DNA of 64,000 nt from Mya arenaria (taxonomy: Eukaryota > Mollusca > Bivalvia > Myida > Myidae): assembly GCF_026914265.1 (NCBI RefSeq), contig NC_069125.1:7212117-7276116 (forward strand), given 5' to 3'. Positions 2,140-55,974 of the stretch are shown one piece after another. The notes under the pieces were generated by a model. It saw only the letters and a program-made list of their open reading frames with translations. It did not search any database and was not told the origin of the DNA. A program made the position numbers and the translations under genes. The stretch's first letter is position 1. Every line of letters begins with the position of its first letter.

Positions 2140-4215
2140 GGGGCAATCCGAGGCTACTTTGCTAAATAGTTGTGTTTACTGTTTGCTATTAAAAAGCATG
2201 CGGAGCTATATTGCAAAATAGTTGTGTTCACTCTTTGATTTTCGAAACCTCCTGTGGCTACATTGCCAAACGTTTGTGTTCACTTTATGCTGATAGAAAC
2301 CATCTGGGGCTAATTGCCAAACAGTTGTGTTCACTGCATGTTGTAAGAAACCGTCCGAGCTACATTGCTAAACATTTGTGTTCACTGCAGGCTGTAAGAA
2401 ACCATCTGGGGCTATTTGCCAAACACTTGTGTTTATTTTATGCTGTTAGAAACCTACTGGGGCTAATTGCCAAACATTTTTGTGTTCACTTTATGCTGTT
2501 AGAAACCATCTGGGGCGAATTGCCAAAATTTGTGTTCACTTTAGGCTGTTAGAAACCATCTGGTGCTACTTTGTCAAATAGTTTTGTTCGCTATATGATG
2601 TAAGAAACCACCAGGGGCTTAATAGCTAAATAGTTATGTTCATTGAATGCTGGTAGAAACTATCCGGAGTTAAAATAGCAAACAGTCATGTCCACTGAAT
2701 GCTGTTAGAAACCATCTGGTGTTACATTGCTAAATATTTGTATACACTATATGTTTTTAGAAACCATCAGGGGCTAAATTGCGTAATAGTTATGTTCAAT
2801 GTATGCTGTTTGATACCATCTGGGACTACATAACCATCTAGTTGTGTTCAATGTATGCTGTTTGATACCATCTGGAACTACATAACCATCTAGTTGTGTT
2901 CAATGTATGCTGTTTGATACCATCTGGAACTACATAACCATCTAGTTGTGTTTAATGTATGCTCTTTAATACCATCTTGAACTACATAACCATCTAGTTG
3001 TGTTTAATATATGCTGTTTAATACCATCTGGGACTACATAACCATATAGTTGTGTTTAATATATGCTGTTTAATACCATCTGGGACTACATAACCATCTA
3101 GTTGTGTTCAATGTATGCTGTTTGATACCATCTGGAACAACATAACCATCTAGTTGTGTTCAATGTATGCTGTTTGATACCATCTGAAACTACATAACCA
3201 TCTAGTTGTGTTTAATATATGCTCTTTAATACCATCTTGAACTACATAACCATCTAGTTGTGTTTAATATATGCTGTTTAATACCATCTGGGACTACATA
3301 ACCATCTAGTTGTGTTTAATATATGCTGTTTAATACCATCTGGGACTACATAACCATCTAGTTGTGTTTAATATATGCTGTTTAATACCATCTTGAACTA
3401 CATAACCATCTAGTTTTGTTTAATATATGCTGTTTAATACCATCTTGAACTACATAACCATCTAGTTGTGTTTAATTTATGCTGTTTAATACCATCTTGA
3501 ACTACATAACCAAATAGTTGTGTTCACTGCAGGCTGTAAGAAACCATCTGATGCTACATTTCGAAATATTTCTGTTCGCTGTATGAGGTACGAAACCATC
3601 TGATGCTACATTGGCAAATAGTTGTGTTCACTGTATGTTAGAAACAATTTTGGGCTACATTGCGAAACAGTTGTGTTCACTCTATGCTGTATGAAACCAT
3701 CTGGTGTTACATTGCCAAATAGTTGTGTTCACTGCAGGCTGTAAGAAACCATTTGTTATGTTGTAAATTGTTATGTTCACTTTATGCTGTTAGCAACCAT
3801 TATAGGCTGCATTACCAAACAGTTGTGTTCATTGTATGCTGTTTGAAACCATTATGGGTTTCAATACCAAACAGCTGTGTTCACTGTATGCTGTTAGCAA
3901 ACATTTTGGGCTACATTACCAAACAGTTGTATTTATTGTATACTGTTTGAAATCATAATGGATTTAATTGCCAAACAGCTGTTTCCACTTTATGCTGTTA
4001 GCAACCATTACGGGCTACATTACTAAACAGGTGTGTTCATTGTTTGCTGTGAGCAAACATCTGGGGCTAAATTGCTAAATAGTTGTTTTTACTGTTTGCT
4101 GTAAGAAACCATCTGCGGCTACATTGCTACATTGCCAATTAATTGTGTTCAGTGTATGCTGTAAGAAACCATCTCGGTTTACATTGCTTAATCATTGTGT
4201 TCACTGTGTGTTGTT
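2140..4215. repeat. 52-bp minisatellite array, unit A
   Basis: About 40 tandem units of a 51-52-bp repeat with the recurring core gttgtgttca...tatgctgtt...accatctgg. The middle block (about 2790-3510) is the most homogeneous, with an exact 52-bp step between 2841 and 2893; the edges are more diverged. The array carries ten more units than its sister in unit B. Open frames through it (2211-2552, 3723-3950) are by-products of the repeat. Confidence 0.95.
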
Positions 4216-5129
4216 AGCGTTCCATACGCATTACTCGTAAGACAATAATTTTCATTTGTTTACGTTATTCCCGTGTTATTTTAACAAGTAATATATTTGT
4301 TATGTCTGATGGTAAAGGCGAAGCAAATAATACATAATATAAACTGAGAAACATGAATACTGAGCTATTGTTTGTATCTGACAATCGGTGTTAACACTTA
4401 GTTTTACTTCTATTCGTTAAAGCTATTAATTTGTTCTCAGTCACCAAATTTCTTAGGGTTAAAGTTAATTGGAAAGACCGTTTATTTTTTGATCAGCTTA
4501 TCAGATTATAACACCACAATATATTTTCCACGCTAGTCCATAAATTGAACGTGAAACACAATGTTTTTACTTGTATAGCGACACAAATATTCCTTCCACT
4601 TCGCTTGCGTTAGGCAAAATATGATTTATTACTCATTTGACTCGAAAGCTGTTACACACGCGGTATCAGTGCGTGATCTCCAAGGTTCTTTCTAATATAC
4701 TGTCAATTTGAATCAGATTTACTGATTGTATGTAGTATTCTACAAAAAAAAAATCATAAATGTATTTCGTTTTAAGTACACACATTGTAAGAGTTAGATT
4801 GTCTGGAAGCGTTTGAATTATTTCATCATAGCATTTGTTGTGTTTTTGTTTGATTGACCTGTACAACAGTACAATACGCACACCTAGTTGTATACCTTAA
4901 ATTTACGCCCATAATTTAAATAGCTATTTTTGTATGACTGTATGGTACATTAAATGAGTAGGTAGCACTTTTGATGCGGCTGGATTCATTCATATGGAAG
5001 TGATGTCTGTATCTACTCGGAAGATTTTAGATTATGTGATTTTTATTCTACATTGTCTTCATGTTGATGCTTGCTTCGATTTGGCTTTCTATCCTTTCTA
5101 TACAATTTCTGGAAAAGTATGAGATTTTT
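4216..5129. other. Noncoding spacer between minisatellites, unit A
   Basis: Collinear with unit B and, more weakly, with about 49.38-50.07 kb of unit D. Unit B lacks a short stretch near 4975-4995, which accounts for most of the offset change from 10229 to 10204. No gene is seen. Confidence 0.65.
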
Positions 5130-5650
5130 GGTGCTCATCCTGTAGTTTAACCCCGAGTGACCTCCTTTATGAAGACTAATCTAAGGCATGACCTCAATTT
5201 TGGGGCAAGTGTGTGGCTTGGAACTCATCAACAATTTTAATCCCCAGTGACCCGCTGTTTCTCTGACAGTTCCAAGGCGTGGCCAAAATTCTGGGGCAAG
5301 TGTGAGGTTGCGAACTCATCAACGAGTTTAATCCCAAGTGACTCTTGTTTCTCTGACCATTTCAAGGAATGGCCACAATTATGGGACAAGTGTGAGGTTG
5401 GGTGGTCATCCTCTAGTTTAACCCAATTGACCCCCTGTTGCGATGAAAGATCCAAGGAGGTGACCACAGTTTTGGGACAAGTATGAGGTTGGGTGGTCAT
5501 CCTCTAGATTAACCCAATTGACCCCCTGTTTCGATGAAAGATCCAAGGAGGTGACCACAATTTCGGGACCAGTGTGAGGTTTGGTGGTACTTATCCGCTA
5601 GTTTAACCCCAATTGACTTCCTTTTTCGATGACTATTCCAATATGGTGAC
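5130..5650. repeat. ~90-bp minisatellite array, unit A
   Basis: Five to six tandem units of about 90-91 bp (the motif ggtggtcatcctctag recurs at 5401 and 5492). Each unit holds a gtttaacccc...tgacctcctgtt core and a gtgacc...ttgggacaagtgtgagg core. Homologous arrays lie in unit B, near 28.5 kb and in unit D, always followed by a conserved right flank containing tttgtacgttgtg. Confidence 0.93.
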
Positions 5651-6554: not shown

Positions 6555-7742
6555 TCAAATTGTTGATCTTGCAGTCCGTTTACCGTAATTAATCCTATGG
6601 CCTTTGTTTGTGAAATCTAAAACTGAATCTAAATAATCCAGGGCCAATGTTTCTGCCCAGCTTACATCCCACAGTTTGTCAATAAATCCACAATGGCCGC
6701 CCTTATTTGTAGACACCATTAGGATATGAGGATAGTACTTGCAAAGTTCATATGGAATTTTCATTTTGGAATAAAATGGATCGTCTAGACTGTTTATAAA
6801 CAGTAAGGGAACGGCGATTTCGTCTGCGTCCCTGAGGGGATTATTGCGCTCTATAAAATCATCTACGCTCGAGATATTGTACAGTTTGGAATATAAAATT
6901 TCTTCAAAGCGTTTGTAAGACCAACAATTAAGGAGTTCATGAAAATTAACAATCTTTGAAAATGTTTTTGAATGAGCATTTAAAATGAACTTTAATTTCA
7001 ACATGTAAAATATATCGTAAATTCCCTGAATGCCTTTAGAGATCCTCTCTGGGCTATCAAAGCACGCTGATATACAGGCTGAAGCACAAATATTTGCCGA
7101 TGATCCGAATTCACCGAGATAAGACAGCATAATAGAACATCCTGTTCCATATCCAACCATTGAAACCAAAGCTTTAGGAAAACGACCATGGATATATTTC
7201 ACTACTTCACGCATATCGTACGGATCACCGGTACTTAAAATCTTTGCTGTTGTTAGCACCGAGTTTCCAAACCCTCTTGGATTAAACACCACTGGTCTGA
7301 AACCTTTATGGGCAGCTAGGCTACACATATTTGAGACATCGTATGCGCTCGCTGTTAATCCAGGAAGTATAATCAACACTGTACACCGCTTTCTTTTGTA
7401 GACTGAAACATGCAAAGCCCAGTCAAGCGCAACAACACCCCGGTCTTTGATCTGCAAATATTCTCTGTCGAACTCCTTCGAGATTTTTGGAATTAAATAC
7501 GACACTATCGTTTGCACATGCTCGTTCCTTAAATACCACGGTGGATCGAATTTGCGGTTCATAAGTCTGCATCGCTTTAGAAGGTGGGATGCCAAAGCCG
7601 ATTCTTTAAAGTACAGTTTTGGAATAGTTGAAGACGGTTTCAAGAAAGAACTTACGTAAATGAAACCACTAACAATTATAGTTCCAAAGATAGCCACAAT
7701 AATAGGAATCGATGTTATCCCTGAGTAAACAGCAAAGAACAT
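6555..7742 (-). CDS. Intronless ABHD1/ABHD3-like membrane alpha/beta-hydrolase, nucleophile lost
   Basis: A 395-residue protein in one uninterrupted exon, close to the ~400 residues of ABHD1/ABHD3 (EMB8/YheT-type) hydrolases. Residues 4-34 form one hydrophobic segment, fitting the family's N-terminal membrane anchor. The family signatures follow in order: DPPWYLRNEHVQT (66-78), ALDW (105-108), LPGLTAS (126-132, oxyanion region), VVFNPRGFGN (151-160), the elbow GYGTG (197-201), NSLDDPF (317-323, acid Asp) and GGHCGF (348-353, His350). Known members have GxSxG at the elbow; here position 199 is Gly, so the catalytic Ser is missing while Asp and His stay. Family members act on phospholipids or acylglycerols at membranes, but this copy is probably not a normal serine hydrolase. 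The start is the first Met and directly precedes the anchor. On the minus strand, a TATA-like stretch near 7793-7803 is conserved in unit B. The lack of introns suggests a retrocopy origin. Confidence 0.88.
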   Translation of the reverse strand: MFFAVYSGITSIPIIVAIFGTIIVSGFIYVSSFLKPSSTIPKLYFKESALASHLLKRCRLMNRKFDPPWYLRNEHVQTIVSYLIPKISKEFDREYLQIKDRGVVALDWALHVSVYKRKRCTVLIILPGLTASAYDVSNMCSLAAHKGFRPVVFNPRGFGNSVLTTAKILSTGDPYDMREVVKYIHGRFPKALVSMVGYGTGCSIMLSYLGEFGSSANICASACISACFDSPERISKGIQGIYDIFYMLKLKFILNAHSKTFSKIVNFHELLNCWSYKRFEEILYSKLYNISSVDDFIERNNPLRDADEIAVPLLFINSLDDPFYSKMKIPYELCKYYPHILMVSTNKGGHCGFIDKLWDVSWAETLALDYLDSVLDFTNKGHRINYGKRTARSTI

Positions 7743-12888: not shown

Positions 12889-14445
12889 GGGGCAATCCGA
12901 GGCTACTTTGCTAAATAGTTGTGTTTACTGTTTGCTATTAAAAAGCATCCGGAGCTATATTGCAAAATAGTTGTGTTCACTCTTTGATTTTCGAAACCTC
13001 CTGTGGCTACATTGCCAAACGTTTGTGTTCACTTTATGCTGATAGAAACCATCTGGGGCTAATTGCCAAACAGTTGTGTTCACTGCATGTTGTAAGAAAC
13101 AGTCCGAGCAACATTGCTAAACATTTGTGTTCACTGCAGGCTGTAAGAAACCATCTGGGGCTATTTGCCAAACACTTGTGTTTATTGTATGCTGTTAGAA
13201 ACCTACTGGGGCTAATTGCCAAACATTTTTGTGTTCACTTTATGCTGTTAGAAACCATCTGGGGCGAATTGCCAAAATTTGTGTTCACTTTAGGCTGTTA
13301 GAAACCATCTGGTGCTACTTTGTCAAAAAGTTTTGTTCGCTATATGATGTAAGAAACCATCAGGGGCTTAATAGCTAAATAGTTATGTTCATTGAATGCT
13401 GGTAGAAACTATGCGGAGTTAAAATAGCAAACAGTCATGTCCACTGAATGCTGTTAGGAACCATCTGGTGTTACATTGCTAAATATTTGTATACACTATA
13501 TGTTTTTAGAAACCATCAGGGGCTAAATTGCGTAATAGTTATGTTCAATGTATGCTGTTTGATACCATTTGGGACTAGATAACCATCTAGTTGTGTTCAA
13601 TGTATGCTGTTTGATACCATCTTGAACTACATAACCATCTAGTTGTGTTTAATATATGCTGTTTAATACCATCTGGGACTACATAACCATCTAGTTGTGT
13701 TTAATATATGCTGTTTAATACCATCTTGAACTACATAACCAAATAGTTGTGTTCACTGCAGGCTGTAAGAAACCATCTGATGCTACATTTCGAAATAGTT
13801 CTGTTCACTGTATGAGGTACGAAACCATCTGATGCTACATTGGCAAATAGTGGTGTTCACTGTATGTTAGAAACAATTTTGGGCTACATTGCGAAACAGT
13901 TGTGTTCACTCTATGCTGTATGAAACCATCTAGTGTTACATTGCCAAATAGTTGTGTTCACTGCAGGCTGTAAGAAACCATTTGTTATGTTGTAAATTGT
14001 TATGTTCACTTTATGCTGTTAGCAACCAATATAGGCTGCATTACCAAACAGTTGTGTTCATTGTATGCTGTTTGAAACCATTATGGGTTTCATTACCAAA
14101 CAGCTGTGTTCACTGTATGCTGTTAGCAAACATTTTGGGCTACATTACCAAACAGTTGTATTTATTGTATACTGTTTGAAATCATAATGGGTTTAATTGC
14201 CAAACAGCTGTTTCCACTTTATGCTGTTAGCAACCACTACGGGCTACATTACTTAACAGGTGTGTTCATTGTTTGGTGTAAGCAAACATCTGGGGCTAAA
14301 TTGCTAAATAGTTGTTTTTACTGTTTGCTGTAAGAAACCATCTGCGGCTACATTGCTACATTGCCAATTAGTTGTGTTCAGTGTATGCTGTAAGAAACCA
14401 TCTAGGTTTACATTGCTTAATCATTGTGTTCACTGTGTGTTGTTA
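12889..14445. repeat. 52-bp minisatellite array, unit B
   Basis: About 30 units of the same 51-52-bp repeat as in unit A. The homogeneous central block is much shorter (about 13545-13740). The coordinate offset to unit A changes from 10749 before the array to 10229 after it, a difference of 520 bp, exactly ten 52-bp units. Confidence 0.95.
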
Positions 14446-15334
14446 GCGTTCCATACGCATTACTCGTAAGACAATAATTTTCTTTTGTTTACGTTATTTC
14501 CGTGTTATTTTAACAAGTAATATATTTGTTATGTCTGATGGTAAAGGCGAAGCAAATAATACATAATATAAACTGAGAAACATGAATACTGAGCTCTTGT
14601 TTGTATCTGACAATCGGTGTTAACACTTAGTTTTACTTCTATTCGTTAAAGCTATTAATTTGTTCTCAGTCACCAAATTTCTTAGGGTTAAAGTTAATTG
14701 GAAAGACCGTTTATTTTTTGATCAGCTTATCAGATTATAACACCACAATATATTTTCCACGCTAGTCCATAAATTGAACGTGAAACACAATGTTTTTACT
14801 TGTATAGCGACACAAATATTCCTTCCACTTCGCTTGCGTTAGGCAAAATATGATTTATTACTCATTTGACTCGAAAGCTGTTACACACGCGGTATCAGTG
14901 CGTGATCTCCAAGGTTCTTTCTAATATACTGTCAATTTGAATCAGATTTACTGATTGTATGTAGTATTCTACAAAAAAAATCATAAATGTATTTCGTTTT
15001 AAGTAAACACATTGTAAGAGTTAGATTGTCTGGAAGCGTTTGAATTATTTCATCATAGCATTTGTTGTGTTTTTGTTTGATTGACCTGTACAACAGTACA
15101 ATACGCACACCTAGTTGTATACCTTAAATTTACGCCCATAATTTAAATAGCTATTTTTGTATGACTGTATGGTACATTAAATGAGTAGGTAGCACTTTTG
15201 ATGGAAGTGATGTCTGTATCTACTCGGAAGATTTTAGATTATGTGATTTTTATTCTACATTGTCTTCATGTTGATGCTTGCTTCGATTTGGCTTTCTATC
15301 CAATTACAATTTCTTGAAAAGTATGAGATTTTTG
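14446..15334. other. Noncoding spacer between minisatellites, unit B
   Basis: Counterpart of 4216-5129 with a short deletion beside atttttgatggaagtg at about 15200. No gene is seen. Confidence 0.6.
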
Positions 15335-15855
15335 GTGCTCATCCTGTAGTTTAACCCCGAGTGACCTCCTTAATGAAGACTGATCTAAGGCATGACCTCA
15401 ATTTTGGGGCAAGTGTGTGGCTTGGAACTCATCAACAATTTTAATCCCCAGTGACCCGCTGTTTCTCTGACAGTTCCAAGGCGTGGCCAAAATTCTGGGG
15501 CAAGTGTGAGGTTGCGAACTCATCAACGAGTTTAATCCCCAGTGACTCTTGTTTCTATGACCATTTCAAGGAATGGCCACAATTATGGGACAAGTGTGAG
15601 GTTGGGTGGTCATCCTCTAGTTTAACCCAATTGACCCCCTGTTGCGATGAAAGATCCAAGGAGGTGACCACAGTTTTGGGACAAGTATGAGGTTGGGTGG
15701 TCATCCTCTAGATTAACCCAATTGACCCCCTGTTTCGATGAAAGATCCAAGGAGGTGACCACAATTTCGGGACCAGTGTGAGGTTTGGTGGTACTTATCC
15801 GCTAGTTTAACCCCAATTGACTTCCTTTTTCGATGACTATTCCAATATGGTGACC
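15335..15855. repeat. ~90-bp minisatellite array, unit B
   Basis: Same unit, copy number and order as the array at 5130-5650, with few substitutions. It is unlike the 52-bp array, which changed length. Confidence 0.92.
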
Positions 15856-16758: not shown

Positions 16759-17946
16759 TCAAATTGTTGATCTTGCAGTCCGTTTACCGTAATTAATCCT
16801 ATGGCCTTTGTTTGTGAAATCTAAAACTGAATCTAAATAATCCAGGGCCAATGTTTCTGCCCAGCTTACATCCCACAGTTTATCAATAAATCCACAATGG
16901 CCGCCCTTATTTGTAGACACCATTAGGATATGAGGATAGTACTTGCAAAGTTCATATGGAATTTTCATTTTGGAATAAAATGGATCGTCTAGACTGTTTA
17001 TAAACAGTAAGGGAACGGCGATTTCGTCTGCGTCCCTGAGGGGATTATTGCGCTCTATAAAATCATCTACGCTCGAGATATTGTACAGTTTGGAATATAA
17101 AATTTCTTCAAAGCGTTTGTAAGACCAACAATTAAGGAGTTCATGAAAATTAACAATCTTTGAAAATGTTTTTGAATGAGCATTTAAAATGAACTTTAAT
17201 TTCAACATGTAAAATATATCGTAAATTCCCTGAATGCCTTTAGAGATCCTCTCTGGGCTATCAAAGCACGCTGATATACAGGCTGAAGCACAAATATTTG
17301 CCGATGACCCGAATTCACCGAGATAAGACAGCATAATAGAACATCCTGTTCCATATCCAACCATTGAAACCAAAGCTTTAGGAAAACGACCATGGATATA
17401 TTTCACTACTTCACGCATATCGTACGGATCACCGGTACTTAAAATCTTTGCTGTTGTTAGCACCGAGTTTCCAAACCCTCTTGGATTAAACACCACTGGT
17501 CTGAAACCTTTATGGGCAGCTAGGCTACACATATTTGAGACATCGTATGCGCTCGCTGTTAATCCAGGAAGTATAATCAACACTGTACACCGCTTTCTTT
17601 TGTAGACTGAAACATGCAAAGCCCAGTCAAGCGCAACAACACCCCGGTCTTTGATCTGCAAATATTCTCTGTCGAACTCCTTCGAGATTTTTGGAATTAA
17701 ATACGACACTATCGTTTGCACATGCTCGTTCCTTAAATACCACGGTGGATCGAATTTGCGGTTCATAAGTCTGCATCGCTTTAGAAGGTGGGATGCCAAA
17801 GCCGATTCTTTAAAGTACAGTTTTGGAATAGTTGAAGACGGTTTCAAGAAAGAACTTACGTAAATGAAACCACTAACAATTATAGTTCCAAAGATAGCCA
17901 CAATAATAGGAATCGATGTTATCCCTGAGTAAACAGCAAAGAACAT
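16759..17946 (-). CDS. Intronless ABHD1/ABHD3-like hydrolase, second identical copy
   Basis: Encodes the same 395 residues as the gene at 6555-7742: N-terminal membrane anchor, LPGLTAS oxyanion region, elbow GYGTG with Gly199 in place of the nucleophile Ser, NSLDDPF acid motif and GGHCGF histidine motif. A base-by-base reading of both CDSs shows two differences in 1188 bp, both silent (an Asp and a Gly codon). The flanks carry roughly five to ten times more change per base. This pattern fits purifying selection or gene conversion over the CDS. The start choice matches copy A: first Met, directly before the membrane segment. No intron or frame break is seen. Function is inferred from the family only; classical serine-hydrolase activity is doubtful. 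Confidence 0.88.
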   Translation of the reverse strand: MFFAVYSGITSIPIIVAIFGTIIVSGFIYVSSFLKPSSTIPKLYFKESALASHLLKRCRLMNRKFDPPWYLRNEHVQTIVSYLIPKISKEFDREYLQIKDRGVVALDWALHVSVYKRKRCTVLIILPGLTASAYDVSNMCSLAAHKGFRPVVFNPRGFGNSVLTTAKILSTGDPYDMREVVKYIHGRFPKALVSMVGYGTGCSIMLSYLGEFGSSANICASACISACFDSPERISKGIQGIYDIFYMLKLKFILNAHSKTFSKIVNFHELLNCWSYKRFEEILYSKLYNISSVDDFIERNNPLRDADEIAVPLLFINSLDDPFYSKMKIPYELCKYYPHILMVSTNKGGHCGFIDKLWDVSWAETLALDYLDSVLDFTNKGHRINYGKRTARSTI

Positions 17947-28500: not shown

Positions 28501-28905
28501 GTGTAAGTTGGGTACTCGCCATATAGTTTAACCCCGATTGACCTCATATTTCGATTACCGATCCAAGGTTGTGACCCAAATGTTGGGACGAGTGTGAGGT
28601 TGTGAACTCATTAACTACTTAAACCCCTATTGACCTCCTGTTTCGATGACAGTTCAAAGGCGTGACCCCATTTTTTGGACAAGTGTGAGATTGGGTGGTC
28701 ATCCCTTAGTTTAACCTCCAGTGAACTCCTGTTTCGATGACAGTTCCAAGGCGTGACCCCAACAATTGTGAGATTGGGTGGTCATCCTTTAGTTTAACCT
28801 CCAGTGAACTCCTGTTTCGATGACAGTTCCTAGGCGTGACCCCAACAAGTGTGAGATTGGGTGGTCATCCTCTAGTTTACCCCCCAGTGACCTCCTTGGT
28901 TTTCA
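28501..28905. repeat. ~90-bp minisatellite array, degenerate copy
   Basis: Four to five diverged units of the repeat found at 5130-5650, with gtttaacc...tgacctc, tttcgatga and aagtgtgaggttg cores. Two adjacent units share a deletion, giving shorter ~75-bp steps at about 28730-28870. Confidence 0.85.
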
Positions 28906-33916: not shown

Positions 33917-34047
33917 TTGTCTATCAGCGTGCTTCCATAGCACCGAGAAGATCTCAAAAGGTATTGAAGGAATTTACGATATGTTTTACATGTTGAAATT
34001 TAAGTTCATTCTAACTGCTCACTCAAAATGTTTACAAACATTGTAAT
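33917..34047 (+). pseudogene. Hydrolase gene fragment, opposite strand
   Basis: The + strand translation reads LSACFHSTEKISKGIEGIYD and continues MFYMLKFKFILTAHSK. This matches residues 224-259 of the intact hydrolase (SACFDSPERISKGIQGIYD...). Neither the upstream two thirds nor the downstream third of the gene is adjacent, so this is an isolated fragment of about 130 bp. Its opposite orientation agrees with the inverted block that contains it. Confidence 0.85.
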
Positions 34048-43245: not shown

Positions 43246-44079
43246 CCTCTTTAATACACATGTCTGTTTTTCCTAGTTTGCAAGTTTGTTTTTTAAAGTT
43301 TACCTGCTATCCAGTTGTACATTCTCAATTCGCTCTGGCTTGATGAGTTAACTCACTCTCAAATTAAATTTACTTTTAATTATTTAGTTTTTGAGAGTGA
43401 GCCAAACAGGCAAACAACATTTTGTTGCTAAATTTACGTTTCCATTCCAATTTCAATTGATCACTTTGAAAATTCCACAACACGTATATCCGATTTTTTC
43501 TGTACGAATCACTGACATTTGTCTGCTCATGTCCAGAATAACTGAATTCAATTCAATACACATGACCGCTTAGCAAGTAGAACGACTGTTTGTACTTAAA
43601 TAAACCAATACCTCGTATTAATGATGTCAGCATGTATGAACATCGCTGTTTTTCAAGTAAATTCAATTTTGCCGCTGCCTTTGTTTTGTTTTCTTAAATG
43701 TCAACGTAGAATACAAAACGCCACCCTAACGGTCCACACTGGTAATCAAACACTAGCATATCTTAAACTGCGTTCGCGTTTGCCTCCCTTTAGAATTTTG
43801 ATAATAAATATGTTCAGGCAGATCAATAAAATTTTATTTATTTAGTCAGGACATTATTTTGCAGTCGCAAAAATTGATTTTAAGGCGAAAATTGAATTTA
43901 CGTGCGAACGTTCTACGGGCCGCAAAATAATAATCGAAAATCGCCCGGGTCGAAAACTGATAATCGCTGAGTCATGCAAATAATCGCGAAATCCTTGTAC
44001 AAATGTGTTACTATATATATTAACATATGTATTAACCGGTAATAAACGGTAAGTTGTTAATTCCCAAATATATATTTAT
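43246..44079. other. Gene-free stretch
   Basis: Short open frames at 43391-43573 and 43621-43845 show no domain. A patch at 43860-43990 is richer in CpG-containing tcgcgaaa/aatcgc motifs. No function is assigned. Confidence 0.45.
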
Positions 44080-44364
44080 TTAAATTTTTAAGACAATTCT
44101 TAAATTTGCCAACATTTTCTGGTTCAAAGTGAAGTGTTCTGATTTCATCAAGGGGAAGCAACTACAATGGATTTTAAAAGTAGTTTTGAAAGTTGATATT
44201 TTCACTTCTATTTCCACTGTTGTTATTTCACTGATAAAACCCCATATTTCATCGAAAAGCATGAAAGAATTAATATTATCTGTAAATACCGGATTATCCA
44301 AACTTAGAATATCGTCAATATGTATAAAAGTTTTCTTGAATTTGTCAGCAAAGGCAGATCTCAA
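44080..44364 (-). mobile_element. Possible Penelope-like reverse-transcriptase fragment
   Basis: The minus-strand translation contains FIHIDDILSLDNPVF, which resembles the (Y/F)xIDDxLSxxN motif around the catalytic Asp pair of Penelope-type reverse transcriptases. The rest of the fragment matches poorly. It is a short relic, and the call depends on this one motif. Confidence 0.4.
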
Positions 44365-46175
44365 GACTTAGATTTTTTCAACATACATTCACTTTCATAG
44401 CAGTATAAAAAGAGGTCTGCAAGTAAAGGGTGCGCATAGGTGTGTTTTCCTTGATATCTTGAAATAAAAAAAAATTAACAGAAAGATTGGGATATATTTT
44501 AGCTGAACCATTTACCCTCTACATTATTAGTTTTAACCACATGTTTAGACTTTTTAAAAACACATATACAGCATCAGGCCAATTGCGCCTACGTAGAGCT
44601 ACGGCGGTGACTATGCAACCAACAATTATATTTGAAGCCTAATAAAGGTGTTATTGCACTAATGAACACAACGTTGCTTTCTCTGTCTATCTCTTCCTAA
44701 GAACCGAACTGTCGAGACCACGTGGAAGTCGAGACGAATGCTGTGTATGCATCGAATATTGTGATGCATGTCCATGTTCAACCTTGAGATTGTAGTCAAA
44801 ATAAATCGCATTATTGAATTAGTGCATTGCCTTGCATATTAACACAAATGAGCAGTTGCATTCGTTCAAAATAGTTTCAGCACGTTCCTGGATGAAAATT
44901 TATTAATTAGAGAATATCGTAATCATTTCAATAAACATCAGTCAGTTAATGGCAGCATTTAACGAAATGCACAAGCATGACACGGGATTGGAATATACGG
45001 ATTTTCCTAAACAGATTGCGATATTTTTACTGTTGATACGATTATGCAGGAGGGTACACGTGTTCCGATTCTTCAACGGCTTAAGTAAGGATTTTTGAAT
45101 CTGATCTGCAAGATGACGGCGAAACGTTAAAACAAGGAATTTGGCAACCAGTTTTCGCATTGTAAGAATTATATCCATATTTTTCTCGAATTTTTTTTCA
45201 AGCCATTAGGCTACTGAAAAAACTTTTTGAGGAAAACCTTCGACCAGTCTGATGTTTACAAATGTGGAAAGCGAACTATTTTTATACTTTGAAGGTAATT
45301 TTAATTCAAAATACATTACGTTTTGCAATGGTTCCTTCAGCATTATTCAAATGTGGTATTTTAATTTCCGGACGCTTTCTTTGCTGTACAAGAGCTTTCC
45401 TTGTCAAATTGTTTTGTTTTAACCACCTTATTGTGTAATTGTGTGGTGATAACAATTTTACCACGTTTTTGGCATCTGAGCTTTATGAAATTTGACAAGC
45501 ATTTATGAAAAATACCAAACTGTGCGACATATTGAACTTGTTACCAAGTTTTAAGTATTATAACACCATATGTTTAATACTTTCTATGTTTAGGTTTGTC
45601 TATTTGATTGTCCGTCCCTTTTTCTACAAATGTTAACAAAACAATCTTCTTACACGTGTTTGCTCTCCTTTGCCAGTTTGACCTAAGGAACAATACATTT
45701 GGTCCGATTTAAATGGTTACCTATTTTATACTAATCCCTCTTGAAGACTCCTATTGATATAAACTGACACTAGAGTGATTACACAGATTCACTTTTGGCT
45801 GTAGGAATATCCAATAGGTAATTTGAAACCAACTTAACATACCACTAGCTGATTTAGCCCCACCCCTCCCCCTCCCCTAAACTCGTCTACGTTTACTTTT
45901 TATGTCAACATCGTAGAAAAGCAATCAGATACGTTGAAAATGAACCATTTCGGTCTAGGAATTTTTAAAACTATAATTCGGGAGTACCTCAACTCCCTGC
46001 CACCCTTTTTACCATATAATTTTAGTTCTTAGGGAGGGATGCATGTCATAATATTGCGCCCCTAAGTTACGCCTCCGTTTACTTCAATTCATGGAGCTGT
46101 CCCTACATCGTTTCATCGCCTAAAGCATTGTTTATGCAAACAAAATGATTCATATCTTAAACGCATTTAATGCGA
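44365..46175. other. Gene-free stretch downstream of the cysteine-rich peptide gene
   Basis: Holds an unassigned minus-strand open frame of 78 residues (44942-45178) with no recognised domain, and a C-rich low-complexity patch near 45858-45880. No convincing exon was found. None of the unit repeats is detectable here. Confidence 0.5.
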
Positions 46176-46181
46176 TTTATT
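46176..46181 (-). terminator. Candidate polyadenylation signal of the cysteine-rich peptide gene
   Basis: AATAAA on the minus strand, about 315 nt after the stop codon at 46497-46495. It would give a modest 3' UTR. Confidence 0.4.
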
Positions 46182-46494
46182 CAATAAATATGAAGCACAA
46201 AAATATATTATACAGCAAACAATTACATACATCAGCGCATTCTAATGTGCACACAAATATAAACTCTTACAAGCAAAACCAATTGAATAGCATTGCGTTA
46301 ATAGTTCAATGAATTGAGAAAAAAGGTAGTATGCATTATTAAAATTGCGTATTGTGATATTTGCTATAAGCAAATGATAATAAGTTGTTGTTTTTTATCA
46401 CTTATAACACGTCTCAATTACAGTTTAAGCAAGGTGTAATTATAGCACATAATCTTTGACAAAATCTCAGCTGCAAGCGGTCACATGCAGTATT

Positions 46495-47386
46495 TCAGTG
46501 ACATCTCGGATGTCCCCTATTGCAGCACCATCCAAACCTTATCGAAGGGGCGCCGATACATCTTCCGGCATAACATTCAGAGGAACCGCAAGATATCGCA
46601 CAGCGACACGCGGCTGAAATCACCAATGTCATACTAGTTTATCATTTTATCGTGTAACTTGCGGAAAATTCGACAAAATAACTAGGTGCCTGATAAACTT
46701 TACTGTCAAATTAGTTGGTCACGTGTTTTTGTTTTACTAGGTAAATTGGTTATGTGACAAATTCAGTTTTTTGATGAATTTCATTTCCTCAATACCTTTT
46801 TACCTTAACTAAAATAACTGCTGGTGAGCACTGATATTCAACGGTTTAGCTTATCCAAGATATTTCTTTAAATTTTAAATTGAATTGATAGGTAAATGAC
46901 GTCATTTTAATGACGCTGAATAAACTTAACGACAGCGATCATCAAGGGGAAATGATGTTTAATGTGAAAATTCAACGTTTTATCAATATATCGACAATTT
47001 AGGCATGCCACTCCGTTAGTTGATGCATGGGATGCCGAAGATGGCGAAAAGTAAACATATGTCAGTCAATAATTCCTCTGAGCTGTTTCGAGAATAATGA
47101 TTTCTATGAAAATCTTCTTAACATTAATGGATTAAATCTTGCCGATATATTTAAACATATGTTCAAATTCGTTGAAATCGATATTAACTGTATTTTAAAA
47201 TAAATATGACAATATTTATAAAATTTCGAAAAAATATTTTCGTCTCTCAACAATATGACAATATCTAAGTTTACTAAGATGAATTAAAATGTACAATACA
47301 CTAATTTACCTACCTCCGGCCCTCGGATTAGGAGTAGTTCCTGACACAGCAAGTATCATAATGCAGAAAATCAGTATGCCGCGCAT
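46495..47386 (-). CDS. Secreted eight-cysteine cationic peptide, two exons (antimicrobial-peptide-like)
   Basis: Joined CDS on the minus strand: exon 1 47386-47314 (73 nt), intron 47313-46614 (700 bp, GT-AG, donor GGAG|GTAGGT, acceptor gatttcag|CC), exon 2 46613-46495. The intron phases agree (phase 1, forming an Ala codon) and the product is 63 residues. Exon 1 encodes a textbook signal peptide: Met, Arg, a hydrophobic core (ILIFCIMILAV), then SG, with likely cleavage near residue 16. Exon 2 encodes eight cysteines spaced C-x-C-x3-C-x4-C-x4-C-x10-CC-x6-C, then His and stop. The mature part has about six Arg, two His and one Glu, so it is clearly cationic. Size, exon split and charge fit mollusc host-defence peptides of the mytilin/myticin/defensin kind, but I recognise no family with this spacing. 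The exons are too short to stand out as open frames. Alternative: a toxin-like or other secreted cysteine-rich peptide. Confidence 0.72.
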
Positions 47387-47416
47387 TTTATTATTGGTAA
47401 GCTATCCTGATCATCT

Positions 47417-47425
47417 CTTTAAATA
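47417..47425 (-). promoter_or_regulatory. Candidate TATA box of the cysteine-rich peptide gene
   Basis: TATTTAAAG on the minus strand, about 39 nt before the ATG at 47386. The spacing would allow a short 5' UTR of about ten bases. An additional upstream noncoding exon cannot be excluded. Confidence 0.35.
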
Positions 47426-49001
47426 CGAAATCACATCAATGTCGATGAAATCATATTAAACCTGGATAACATTTGTTTTCAAACCTTTTTTCTCAAAAGC
47501 TCTCCTGGGCAAAAAGTGGAAAGAACTAAAGGCGCTCATTTCATTCAATGATTACTTTTCCCGAAAATATATGACGCCGGTATAACATATAATATTAAAA
47601 AAAAAAACGCAAAAAATGAATACACTGGTTGCAGACGCTTTACCAATAGTTATTATTGTATGGTCAGTGTAACCCTGAACTATACTTATCGGCAGTTTAT
47701 AGGGCAAATTACACCAAAAACGTTATTACAGTGTTTTCTTTGGTCTAATTTAACAAATGACAGTGAATCAAAGCATAGCAACCTCAAACCATTTGATCCT
47801 TATAGGTTTTGAACCTGAATGGTGATTTTTAAATTTTGTTTATCATGCTGGATCTACAGGATCTGATTTTTGGCTCAACTTTGCATTGCATTGTTTGTAC
47901 TCCTACGCCGGATCGGGTCACTTTATCCAATTGAAAGTGGTTAGACCAACCTTTTCTTCTTCTTTTTTGAACTAATTATCTTATCAGATGCTCTTCTTTT
48001 CCTGCCGTTGCTTAATGTTTATAACACAAGTAGAACCTTTTTTCCATATATGGTGTGGTGTCCGGGGTCGTAAAGATCAGAAATCAATACTTGTATGCGT
48101 GTCAATCGGTTAAACCATTAAGGAATATATGGGAAAATTTATTGGTTTGTAATATTCAGGTATCAACCAGGGCATGTCTAAAGTACCAACATATGTGCTA
48201 AAATGAGATAACGATTGTCTCCTTTTAATCAAAACGTAGCTAATTCTGTTAAGAAACAATATTCACAGAAGATATGGAGTATAAGAAAATAACCTCCCCC
48301 TTCCTCTTTTCTAAAACTGATTTGACTGCAAAGGTTGTGTTTTTCAAAGAGTTCTCAAATCGTCATCAAATTTTGGAATAGAGCTTCAAATCCAACTTTT
48401 TTGTACAATGAAAGTATTAACATACTTAACTTATAAAGACTGATATAAACGAAAATAAAGGATTTTTTTATAGGAAAAGATCCACTATTACTGCATTTCA
48501 TTGTTGAGATTGTCGACAATCGTGTGCAAGTACGCTTTTCAAGCGCTCGATTGATTACGAACCAAAATAGTATTGAGAAAGTCCTGATATGAACAGAATA
48601 AGATGCAGAAAGACACTAAGTATTTTAAGGGATTAACTTAAGTTTGAAACCATCAAATTTGAACTGGAATGAACACAATACAGACCATATACCAATGACT
48701 ATATTTCAGTTGTCTTCAAGACTGTATTTTTAACAATGCAACATCATTCCTTGGAAAATAACAGCACGAAAAATATATATCGTACGTTATTACGAACAGG
48801 TAGGCGAACAATTGCAGTTGAACAGTTCTTGTTATCGATTCAACTGACGACATACTTGTTTACAATGATCGCGACGGAACAGCGTCATACAAAAAAATAA
48901 TGATAAACTGAGATTTGTTTTTTAACAATTATTTTTACACAATACAATGTTTGCGACGTTACAGTCTGGTGCAGATGTATACTTGGTCACATGATTTATC
49001 A
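47426..49001. other. Gene-free stretch upstream of the cysteine-rich peptide gene
   Basis: I looked for further signal-peptide or cysteine-rich exons on both strands and found none that I would defend. No unit-related repeats are visible. Confidence 0.45.
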
Positions 49002-50079: not shown

Positions 50080-50795
50080 AACAAGTGTGATGTTGGGAAC
50101 TCATCCTCAAGTTTAACCCCGAGTGACCTCCTGTTTCGATGACTGATCCGAGGCGGTAACCCCAATTTTGGTACAAGTCTGAGGTTAAGAACTTATCCAC
50201 TAGATAACCCCGAGTGACCTCCTGTTTCGATGACCGATCCGAGGCGGTGACCCCAATTCGGGTACAAGTGTGAGGTTATCAACTAGATAACCCCGAGTGA
50301 CCCCCTGTTTCGATGACCGATGCGAGGCGGTGACCACAATTTGGGTACAAGAGTGAGGTTGGGAACTTATCAACTAGATAACCCCGAGTGATATTCTGTT
50401 TCGATGACCGATGCGAGGCGGTGACCCCAGTTTGGGTATAAGTGTAAGTTTGGGAACTCGTCATCAAGTTTAACCCCGAGTGACCTCCTATTTCGATGAC
50501 CGATGCGAGGCGGTGACCCCAATTCGGGTACAAGAGTGAGGTTGGGAACTTATCAACTAGATAACCCCGAGTGACCTCCTGTTTCGATGACCTGTCGAGG
50601 CGGTGACCCCAATTTGAGTACAATAGTGAGGTTGGGAACTTATCAACTAGATAACCCCGAGTGACCTCCTGTTTCGATGGCCGATGCGAAGCGGTCACCA
50701 CAATTTGGGTATAAGTGTAAGTTTGGGAACTCGTCATCAAGTTTAACCCCGAATGACCTCCTATTTCGCCGACCATTCTAATGCGTGACCCAAAC
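50080..50795. repeat. ~90-bp minisatellite array, unit D
   Basis: About eight units of 90-91 bp (aactagataa recurs at 50281, 50372, 50555 and 50645). It is longer than the arrays in A and B and has its own consensus (aactagataaccccgagtga), so it amplified locally after the copies separated. The 165-residue open frame over it is an artefact of the repeat. Confidence 0.93.
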
Positions 50796-53140: not shown

Positions 53141-54242
53141 TTTGCAACTTTACTATTTTCAGCGGAGGGCGCACGGGAATGTGTCCTTATCTTATAAGTT
53201 CTAGTAAATGCTTGTTCAACAAAGTGCGGTCAAGTAACTTATTTAATCCTGTTCTCCGACATATCACTGGTATATATATATATATATATCTTACATCTAT
53301 TCCCCGTGACTTTGACCTATCCACTTGTTCGCCGCCCTGTCTTTCACACTGCGTCCTACACTGCTGATCAGATAAAATGTTTCCCTCGATGAAGCGATTT
53401 GGTGTACGGTGCCTTTCATAATATGCCTTTTTACAATATATTTTCATGGTTTATTTAAACGGTATTCGTTGATAACGGAACCGGCGGTCACTATTAAATG
53501 TCATCGCGTTAATGCGAATTTATTACCATACTCTTTACTGTGTGATATTTGATATTTTTAACTCCAAATTTGAAAGCATTTCCTGCTCTCGTTCAAAAAG
53601 CACACCTATTAACTTAATTTTCTTTTGTTGAATGTTACTTTACATTATGACTTTATTACCAAGAGCTATATGATATCCATGCTTCCTCTGTACGTAATAA
53701 TTTAATAAATTAACGTAATTTTATATCTAAACGAAAACAAAATTACACATTAACTTAGTTCCACTATCTATTCATGATATCTAACATTTCAACTTTTCTT
53801 ACATAATATTCTTTCAAACTTCTCTCCTTACCATTGATATTCTAAAATTATCCATGATAACGCTTAGCATCAAAATGTATTCAAGAATGATCTGTTCTCT
53901 TGTGCATAGATTATTATCCGCTTAACATCTTCTTTTAATCCTTTTTACCGCATCCTACAACGTGAGCACAATGACATAACAAGGGCATAATTAATACATT
54001 TCTTTAAAGTTTGAGAGTTTGCATTAGAGGAGTTGAACCATATGTGCTTTTGCGAATAGATAAAAAATAACGCTGTCGATCTAACTTTTCTTCGCATTTA
54101 AGTATACCTGGCGCTACAACAACCAATATTCTCAGATTTTATTTGTTTCTCGCTGTCATTGTTATGATCCTAAGATCACCAGTTTTACATTCACATGTGC
54201 GCATAACAGGCATAGCGCTCTTTACACGCATAATCACAATTA
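53141..54242. other. 5' flank of the unit D pseudogene
   Basis: Diverged counterpart of 7743-8850, with a (TA)n tract at about 53271-53290. It ends with AATTA (54238-54242), the left target-site duplicate of the LINE. Confidence 0.6.
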
Positions 54243-55974
54243 TACTAAATGATAACCAATTTGGCTTTAGAGGCAAACGTAGTACTGTTGATTGTATTTA
54301 TGTGTTGTCATCTATTATTAATATGGTTATTAATACTGATAAAAGAAAATTATACTGTGCCTTTATAGACTTTCGTAAAGCGTTCGATGTTGTGTATAGA
54401 AATGGTATATGGTACAAATTGTTACAATATGGTGCATCAACCAAACTTGTATCGATGCTCAAAAAAATATATGAATCAGTGAAATCATGTGTACGTGTAA
54501 GATCACAATATAGTGACTATTTTGATAGCAATATGGGTGTTAAGCAAGGTGAGCCTCTTTCACCGTTGTTATTTCTGTTTTTTATAAATGATATGGAAGA
54601 TAGTTTAAGTCGAGATTGTATTGATACAGTCACTATTGACGAAATTCGTATATTTATGCTGTTATTTGCAGACGATACTGTCTTATTTTCATATACTGAG
54701 CAAGGTTTGCAGCTCTTACTGAATAAATTACATGTATATTGTAATACATGGGGTATAACTGTTAACATAGATAAAAGCTTTGTAATGGTATGTCAAAAAG
54801 GAAACAGAACTGAGAATGTTAATTTGATGTATGACGGGCATAAACTTGATGTTGTTAAAAAATTCACATACTTAGGTGTTGCAATATCGCAAAATGGTAC
54901 ATATTTGCAATCACAAAAACAGTTGTCAGAACAAGCACTGCGTGCTTTGTATTCTTTAATCGATTGTTCGATGTTATATCTTTAGATATACGTGATAAAT
55001 TAAAGTTATTTGATGCTATGATAAGCCCCATACTGAATTATGGTTGTGAAGTATGGGGTTTCCATAGAGCTCAGGATATCGAGAGAGTTCAATTAAAATT
55101 CTTGAAACAAATTCTAAGTGTTAGACAGCAGACTTGTAATGCTGCAGTATATGGTGAATTGGCAAGATTCCCATTATCATTGTTTAGAAAAATTAGAATA
55201 ATTAGATTTTGGTATAAAATAAAACGTTATCCTGGGTCTCTTTTATATAAAGTTTATAGTATGAAAAATAACAATGGTATGTATATAAATACATGGACAC
55301 TAAAAGTGAAGGAACTGCTCGATGAGCTAGGATTTACTTTTATGTTTGATTGTGAAAATGTTACACGACTGCAATTAGAGGCTGTTGTAAGACGGTTGTA
55401 TGATAATTATTTGCAACAATGGTATACGAGTGTTAGAAACTCAGATAAATTACAATATTATGTTGGTTTTAAACACGATTTTGTCATTGAAAAATACTTG
55501 TCTTGTATAAATAATAACAAATTACGGATATGTTTAACTAGATTTAGATGTTCAGCACACTGTCTTAATATTGAAGAAGGGAGATATAGGAATATTAATC
55601 GTGAAGATAGAAAATGTGTACATTGCAATATGAATGTTGTTGAAAATGAGTATCATTTTCTTTTGATATGCCCAAAGTATAGAGACCTTCGTGTCAAATA
55701 TTTACCAAGATATTATTGCCAATGGCCAAACATGACCAAATTTAATACTTTGTTAAGTACTGACAATGTTAAGCTGTTAAATAACATAGCAACATATATA
55801 TCGTTTGCTACAGATAGAAGAAATGCTTAATTGTATAAATTCTATTATACCATGATATTATAAAACATACTTTTCTCTTTTGATGTTATACTGATATCAT
55901 TAAATGCCATCTTGTGTATATGTTTTTGGCAATGTTCAATTTGAATAATGCTAATAAAATTTTGACTTGACTTG
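54243..55974 (+). mobile_element. 5'-truncated non-LTR retrotransposon (LINE) with target-site duplication
   Basis: Flanked by AATTA at 54238-54242 and 55975-55979; units A and B show the uninterrupted site near 8842. The readable coding part starts inside the reverse-transcriptase domain: QFGFRGKRST, the AFIDFRKAFD motif, VKQGEPLSPLLF and the catalytic FADD box (about 54668). The C-terminal region follows, with a CxxC...H...C zinc-knuckle-like motif (CVHC...EYHFLLICP, about 55615-55672). One frame change near 54960 separates the two parts (54243-54985 and 54964-55830). The 3' end carries AATAAAA and a short ttgac tail. The endonuclease and 5' parts are absent. Clade not assigned. Confidence 0.92.

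Follow-up and report, generated by a model that had tools for sequence, protein, structure and literature searches.

We describe a two-exon gene, P1, on the minus strand of the window (the whole stretch of 64,000 nucleotides of Mya arenaria DNA that was analysed) and three paralogues, P2, P3 and P4, which, judged by their sequences, probably form a new clam family of secreted, cationic, eight-cysteine host-defence peptides of a defensin-like kind. In the original prediction the locus was a spliced gene whose product is a small, secreted and cationic peptide rich in Cys and Arg, and this is borne out by the three paralogues, which have the same architecture. Two points go beyond it: P1 is one of four tandem genes, among which its exon 1 and its TATA box have changed most, and six of the cysteines in its predicted product deviate from the alpha-defensin array by no more than one residue.

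The gene model given earlier proved to be right in its coordinates, splice sites, phase and spacing (Table 1). Joined in phase 1, the two exons encode a precursor of 63 aa with cysteines at positions 27, 29, 33, 38, 43, 54, 55 and 62, that is, with the array C-x-C-x3-C-x4-C-x4-C-x10-CC-x6-C (spacing 1-3-4-4-10-0-6). Exon 1 ends at the donor GGAG/GTAGGT and exon 2 begins after the acceptor GATTTCAG. The donor outscores 99.9% of the GTs on the minus strand of the window, and exon 1 is clearly the best of seven phase-1 combinations of an ATG and a donor (four ATGs) that have a hydrophobicity of at least 2.0 and lie in the 5 kb upstream. The GC content changes at the edges of both exons: exon 1 (0.49) lies between flanks of 0.30 and 0.25, and exon 2 (0.54) between flanks of 0.35 and 0.36, with all flanks measured on stretches of 80 nt. 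The predicted mature peptide is rich in Cys and Arg and carries a net charge of +4. The signal peptide was called on the basis of hydrophobicity and of the conservation of exon 1, and the putative secretion of the products of all four genes follows from the conservation of this signal-like exon.

Table 1. Elements of P1 (positions in the window) and exons of its paralogues (positions on contig C4, which also carries the window)
Feature	Position	Strand	Description
P1 exon 1	47386-47314	minus	73 nt = 24 codons + 1 nt; predicted hydrophobic signal peptide MRGILIFCIMILAVSGTTPNPRAG
P1 intron	47313-46614	minus	700 nt, phase 1, GTAGGT...GATTTCAG
P1 exon 2	46613-46495	minus	predicted mature eight-Cys peptide ACRCAISCGSSECYAGRCIGAPSIRFGWCCNRGHPRCH and stop TGA
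P1 TATA-like box	47417-47425	minus	TATTTAAAG, 39 nt upstream of ATG
P1 AATAAA	46176-46181	minus	candidate poly(A) signal, 314 nt past stop
P2 exon 1	7199651-7199579	as P1	
P2 exon 2	7196979-7196867	as P1	
P3 exon 1	7185694-7185622	as P1	
P3 exon 2	7181532-7181408	as P1	
P4 exon 1	7178884-7178812	as P1	
P4 exon 2	7176901-7176786	as P1	

A search of the genome with the P1 precursor returned, besides the two exons of P1 itself, a 58%-identical exon at C4:7196873-7197004. Altogether there are three more complete copies, P2-P4, on the same contig beyond the left end of the window, on the strand of P1 and all within 83 kb; the family has at least four complete members in tandem. In all four members exon 1 is exactly 73 nt long, open and in phase 1, and is followed by GTAGGT or GTACGT. 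The introns measure 700, 2599, 4089 and 1910 nt in P1 to P4, and parts of the P1 intron align with that of P2 at 66-76% identity. The acceptors are TTTCAG (P1 and P2), TTGCAG (P4) and the less convincing AAAAG (P3). TATAAAA is found 53-62 nt upstream of the ATG, and the first AATAAA 94-119 nt past the stop, in P2-P4. The precursors are 61-65 aa long and the net charges of P2-P4 are +8, +9 and +10, mostly due to Arg. The eight cysteines are all kept in the paralogues, with the arrays 1-3-4-4-8-0-6 in P2 and P3 and 1-4-4-4-8-0-6 in P4, so that the family consensus reads C-x-C-x3/4-C-x4-C-x4-C-x8/10-CC-x6-C; in each member the last Cys is followed by one or two residues and then the stop. It is the shared architecture of the three paralogues that is decisive, and because of it we conclude that the gene predicted as P1 is a real spliced gene.

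Genome searches with P1, P3 and P4 gave no further complete members among the best candidates scored. There are two lone copies of exon 1, at C5:61698875 and C4:9171682, each with an intact frame, a donor and TATAAAA upstream; no second exon was recognisable within about 18 kb of either. Two loci on contig C11 were rejected as family members (stop in frame, no array), as was a locus on contig C3, by its look another Cys-rich frame.

With P1 as the only query, we were not able to find any relatives in the protein database, though annotated Mya proteins are present there. A search with P1 together with nine mytilins gave nine matches of 34-103 aa: eight mytilins and one unnamed Mytilus protein, which carries the same Pfam domain as the mytilins. 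None of these nine matches was a Mya protein. Since mytilins are recovered there, the database does contain small bivalve peptides. The published Mya annotation drew on RNA-seq from six tissues, hemocytes among them (as a section of PMC10663159 describes), and that neither search returned the product of P1 counts against our reading.

Potentially, P1 could be a decaying copy of a real family that is scarcely or never expressed. We consider this possible but somewhat unlikely. Besides the missing database match, it would agree with the lowest net charge of the four members and with the sequence TATTTAAAG standing in place of TATAAAA, by which the core promoter of P1 seems to have been weakened. 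It would also agree with the faster change of exon 1. In this exon, dN/dS (NG86) was 0.14, 0.36 and 0.64 among the pairs of P2-P4, and when P1 was compared with the other three it came to 0.84, 1.11 and 7.3, where the value of 7.3 rests on one synonymous difference. On the other hand, the frame, the splice sites and all eight cysteines of P1 are intact, and in exon 2 dN/dS is 0.35 against P2 and 0.29 against P4. The remaining exon-2 values are 0.42 (P2-P3), 0.48 (P2-P4) and 0.27 (P3-P4), with the P1-P3 pair saturated; all these estimates rest on small counts. With values of 0.27-0.48, the mature peptide is under purifying selection in the measured pairs, while exon 1 of P1, at 0.84-7.3, shows no clear constraint and has drifted. 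The constraint on the mature peptide goes along with an identity outside the cysteines that falls to 5 of 26 compared positions (19%) in exon 2 among P1-P4, and among P2-P4 the signal exon is better conserved than the mature part. P1 may be the least typical member of the family.

Next, we consider what kind of peptide the family encodes. Neither the precursors nor the mature peptides of P1-P4 matched anything in Pfam above threshold. The sole match below threshold was that of P2 to Myticin-prepro (PF10690; E 0.082, 13.6 bits against a cut-off of 28.5), a model to which P1, P3 and P4 gave no match. Nothing significant was found in the PDB for P1, P4 or the family profile, and P1 alone gave no hit at all. 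We did not find the eight-cysteine framework of P1-P4 described in the literature searched, where the spacing itself is not searchable; the sections covered of a paper on the hard clam (PMC8905726) and of one on CS-alpha-beta arrays (PMC5116183) contain no matching peptide.

If the fourth and the eighth cysteine are left out, all four members read C-x-C-x3/4-C-x9-C-x8-10-CC, with six cysteines within one residue of the alpha-defensin array. Random eight-cysteine arrays fit this pattern in 3-5 of 10,000 cases. Both variants of the second gap have counterparts, x3 in human defensin 6 and x4 in neutrophil defensin 1; the last loop is x10 in P1 and x8 in P2-P4, and the exact x9 of the alpha-defensins occurs in none of the four. 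Alpha-defensins have a conserved Arg-Glu salt-bridge pair and a conserved Gly (according to a section of PMC3179947). Of this signature, Glu is found at C3+4 in all four members, Gly two residues before C5 in P1 and P2, and Arg after C2 in P3 and P4, but no member has all three together. The alpha-defensins compared (human defensin 6, neutrophil defensins 1 and 4) are cationic and about 36-40 aa long, like P1-P4. They differ in having six cysteines instead of eight, the extra ones being located at C3+5 and seven residues after the CC; P1-P4 also differ in a signal exon that is joined directly to the mature part and in their bivalve host, a few mammals being the only animals in which alpha-defensins have been identified according to a section of PMC7203481.

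When hits with E up to 10 are considered, the only PDB entries found with the family profile are two chains of human defensin 6 (E 2.7 and 3.7). P4 by itself hits neutrophil defensin 4 first (E 0.75), and disintegrin chains as weakly (E 0.77-3.8). Among column permutations with fixed cysteines, 0 of 60 and 4 of 400 attained the score of the family against an alpha-defensin profile, whose reference sequences were picked after, and because, the family had hit them; with neutrophil defensin 4 added it was 5 of 500. For big defensins, myticins, mytilins, molluscan defensins and ABF, 12 to 59 of 60 permutations per set attained the score of the family, and runs of 500 permutations for big defensins and myticins again placed it within the null. 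A simpler test at the level of residues gave p = 0.07 for the alpha-defensins, and P4 alone, compared without permutations, scored 22.2 against alpha-defensins and 17.1 against ABF. No member was matched by PF00323 (Defensin_1) using hmmscan with E up to 10, and none of the six places that this model found in the genome at E <= 10 is one of the four loci. In summary, the similarity to alpha-defensins is statistically weak, and what the sequences suggest is a resemblance worth testing rather than membership.

In the alpha-defensin fold, a three-stranded sheet is held by the disulfides Cys1-6, 2-4 and 3-5. With less confidence than we attach to the host-defence role, we propose a compact beta-sheet of this type as the most likely fold of P1-P4, in which C1 would pair with C7, C2 with C5 and C3 with C6, and a fourth bond would form between the extra C4 and C8. 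The trans-defensin superfamily gave rise to the big defensins and the beta-defensins. That P1-P4 are an alpha-defensin-type family with a fourth disulfide in a bivalve, carrying the mammalian cysteine frame and part of the Glu/Gly/Arg signature, arisen either by convergence or as a separate trans-defensin branch, is a tentative and rather doubtful proposal.

As for function, the signal peptide would be cleaved just before the first Cys, the eight cysteines would form four disulfides, and the Arg-rich peptides would bind and disrupt microbial envelopes as defensin-like effectors. By analogy, we take such a host-defence effector to be the likeliest putative role. It is unlikely, in our view, that P1-P4 are secreted disulfide-rich peptides without antimicrobial activity, such as a protease inhibitor, a signalling peptide or a component of mantle or mucus. 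The lack of any Pfam match above threshold would fit such a role, and so would the disintegrin chains that P4 hits as weakly as it hits defensins, but the charge of +4 to +10, mostly from Arg, the better-kept signal exon (in P2-P4) and the tandem copies speak against it, all three being typical of host-defence peptides.

The array of P1 differs from that of every mollusc family compared, and the statement of the original prediction that its spacing could not be matched therefore stands. The comparison sequences came from Table 4 of PMC5484132 (in part) and Table 1 of PMC7168163. Oyster defensin, myticin, mytilin and nematode ABF are, like P1-P4, cationic and have eight cysteines. It is nevertheless improbable that P1-P4 are derived CS-alpha-beta defensins of the mytilin, myticin, oyster-defensin or ABF type that have lost the C-x-C. 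The segment C2-x3-C3-x4-C4-x4-C5 of P1-P3 is the same as in oyster defensins, myticins, the alternative-array mytilins of Perna and ABF, a match of gaps with a chance of about 8 in 10,000, and to this can be added the sub-threshold match of P2 to Myticin-prepro and an hhalign probability of 24% for P4 alone against ABF. Furthermore, altered frameworks of CS-alpha-beta descent exist in fungi, and the framework as such requires C-x3-C and C-x-C (both according to a section of PMC5234102). However, all four members end in CC-x6-C and none has a C-x-C near the C-terminus, C2-x3-C3 is limited to P1-P3 and broken by the x4 of P4, there is no C-terminal extension, and the scores against molluscan defensins, mytilins, ABF and myticins are no better than those of permutations. 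We therefore rejected membership on account of the missing C-x-C, the gap of P4 and scores within the null. The core segment of P1 was no better than its shuffles either (p 0.36-0.50), in a test of low power, since p ranged from 0.02 to 0.91 when it was applied to members of known families and families other than their own. Concerning gene structure, sections of PMC7356231 and PMC7168163 describe four exons for the mussel myticin and mytilin genes, and a section of PMC2823732 three exons for oyster defensin genes, with a 43-bp exon 1 that holds part of the signal.

Many secreted proteins have a phase-1 intron after the signal peptide. All four members have one where the Cys-rich region begins, a weak criterion, and the same is described in a section of PMC7203481 for big defensins, beta-defensins and the non-canonical big defensins of the Manila clam. 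Big defensins, including the non-canonical, beta-defensin-like ones of Ruditapes and Dreissena, are secreted bivalve peptides like P1-P4, and some of them share the CC followed by basic residues. We rejected this assignment, as the big-defensin array 6-3-13/14-4-0 is found in none of the three array types of P1-P4. The N-terminal hydrophobic domain of big defensins is absent from P1-P4, whose precursors of 61-65 aa are too short for it, and the similarity of the P1-P4 profile to big defensins lies within the permutation null. The big-defensin model PF14862 gave one marginal hit in the clam genome, on a different contig, and this locus was discarded: none of its frames with at least five cysteines has the big-defensin array. 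The CRP-I peptides of Mytilus are also a multigene family in which the signal region is conserved and the Cys-rich mature part varies. Their array, C(x3-6)C(x1-7)CC(x3-4)C(x3-5)C (from a section of PMC10138031), does not occur in P1-P4, nor did we see a propeptide with a dibasic site in the latter.

We also compared P1 with chance expectation, using 240 order-3 Markov versions of the 64-kb window and counting as a gene any signal-like exon with a good donor that lies in phase and at most 5 kb from a terminal exon with at least eight cysteines. A comparable gene was found in 1 of 240 versions with loose thresholds and in none of 240 with either medium or strict ones. That P1 consists of two unrelated open frames paired by chance has practically no probability left: a terminal exon with at least eight cysteines by itself does occur in 24.6% of the 240 simulated windows, and we have therefore dropped cysteine density as evidence, but the counts for the whole gene speak against such a pairing, and the three paralogues with the complete architecture of P1 already refute it.

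The original prediction had also placed P1 in the only part of the window free of the repeated unit. Of the parts of the window that have no self-matches, 43251-49001 is indeed the longest, but it is one of five such parts that measure 1.5 kb or more. Elsewhere in the window there are two ABHD15-like genes on the minus strand (6555-7742 and 16759-17946), which encode the same protein and differ at 2 of 1188 nt; along 98% of the length of the frame 7742-6555, the sequence equals that of a Mya arenaria protein. Both genes are located inside a duplication of about 10.2 kb, the central 4.8 kb of which are 98.6% identical and which would be either a recent tandem duplication or an assembly artefact. 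A third, broken copy lies at 53140-51968 (minus; two long pieces with 82-86% and a short one with 74% protein identity), and a short fragment at 33933-34028. Two further loci, L007 (7716-7784) and L009 (2051-2119), match a stretch within the ABHD15-like frame of the window, which suggests that the ABHD15 array extends past the window on both sides. Arrays of a 52-bp tandem repeat are found once in each copy of the large duplication (2153-4217 and 12901-14446), and arrays of 83-91-bp repeats at 5189-5632, 15393-15836, 28679-28896 and 50081-50768. At 54071-55830 (plus), a reverse-transcriptase frame (PF00078, E 1.9e-27) overlaps with another open frame that comes after it, and the two look like a non-LTR-type element.

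A transmissible cancer, which probably derives from hemocytes, is a subject of study in Mya arenaria, and P1-P4 would add a family of secreted peptides to what is known of the immunity of this clam. If the alpha-defensin-type fold proves to be true, this frame would not be confined to mammals, and synthetic P2 and P4 would make the choice between convergence and descent within the trans-defensins directly testable.
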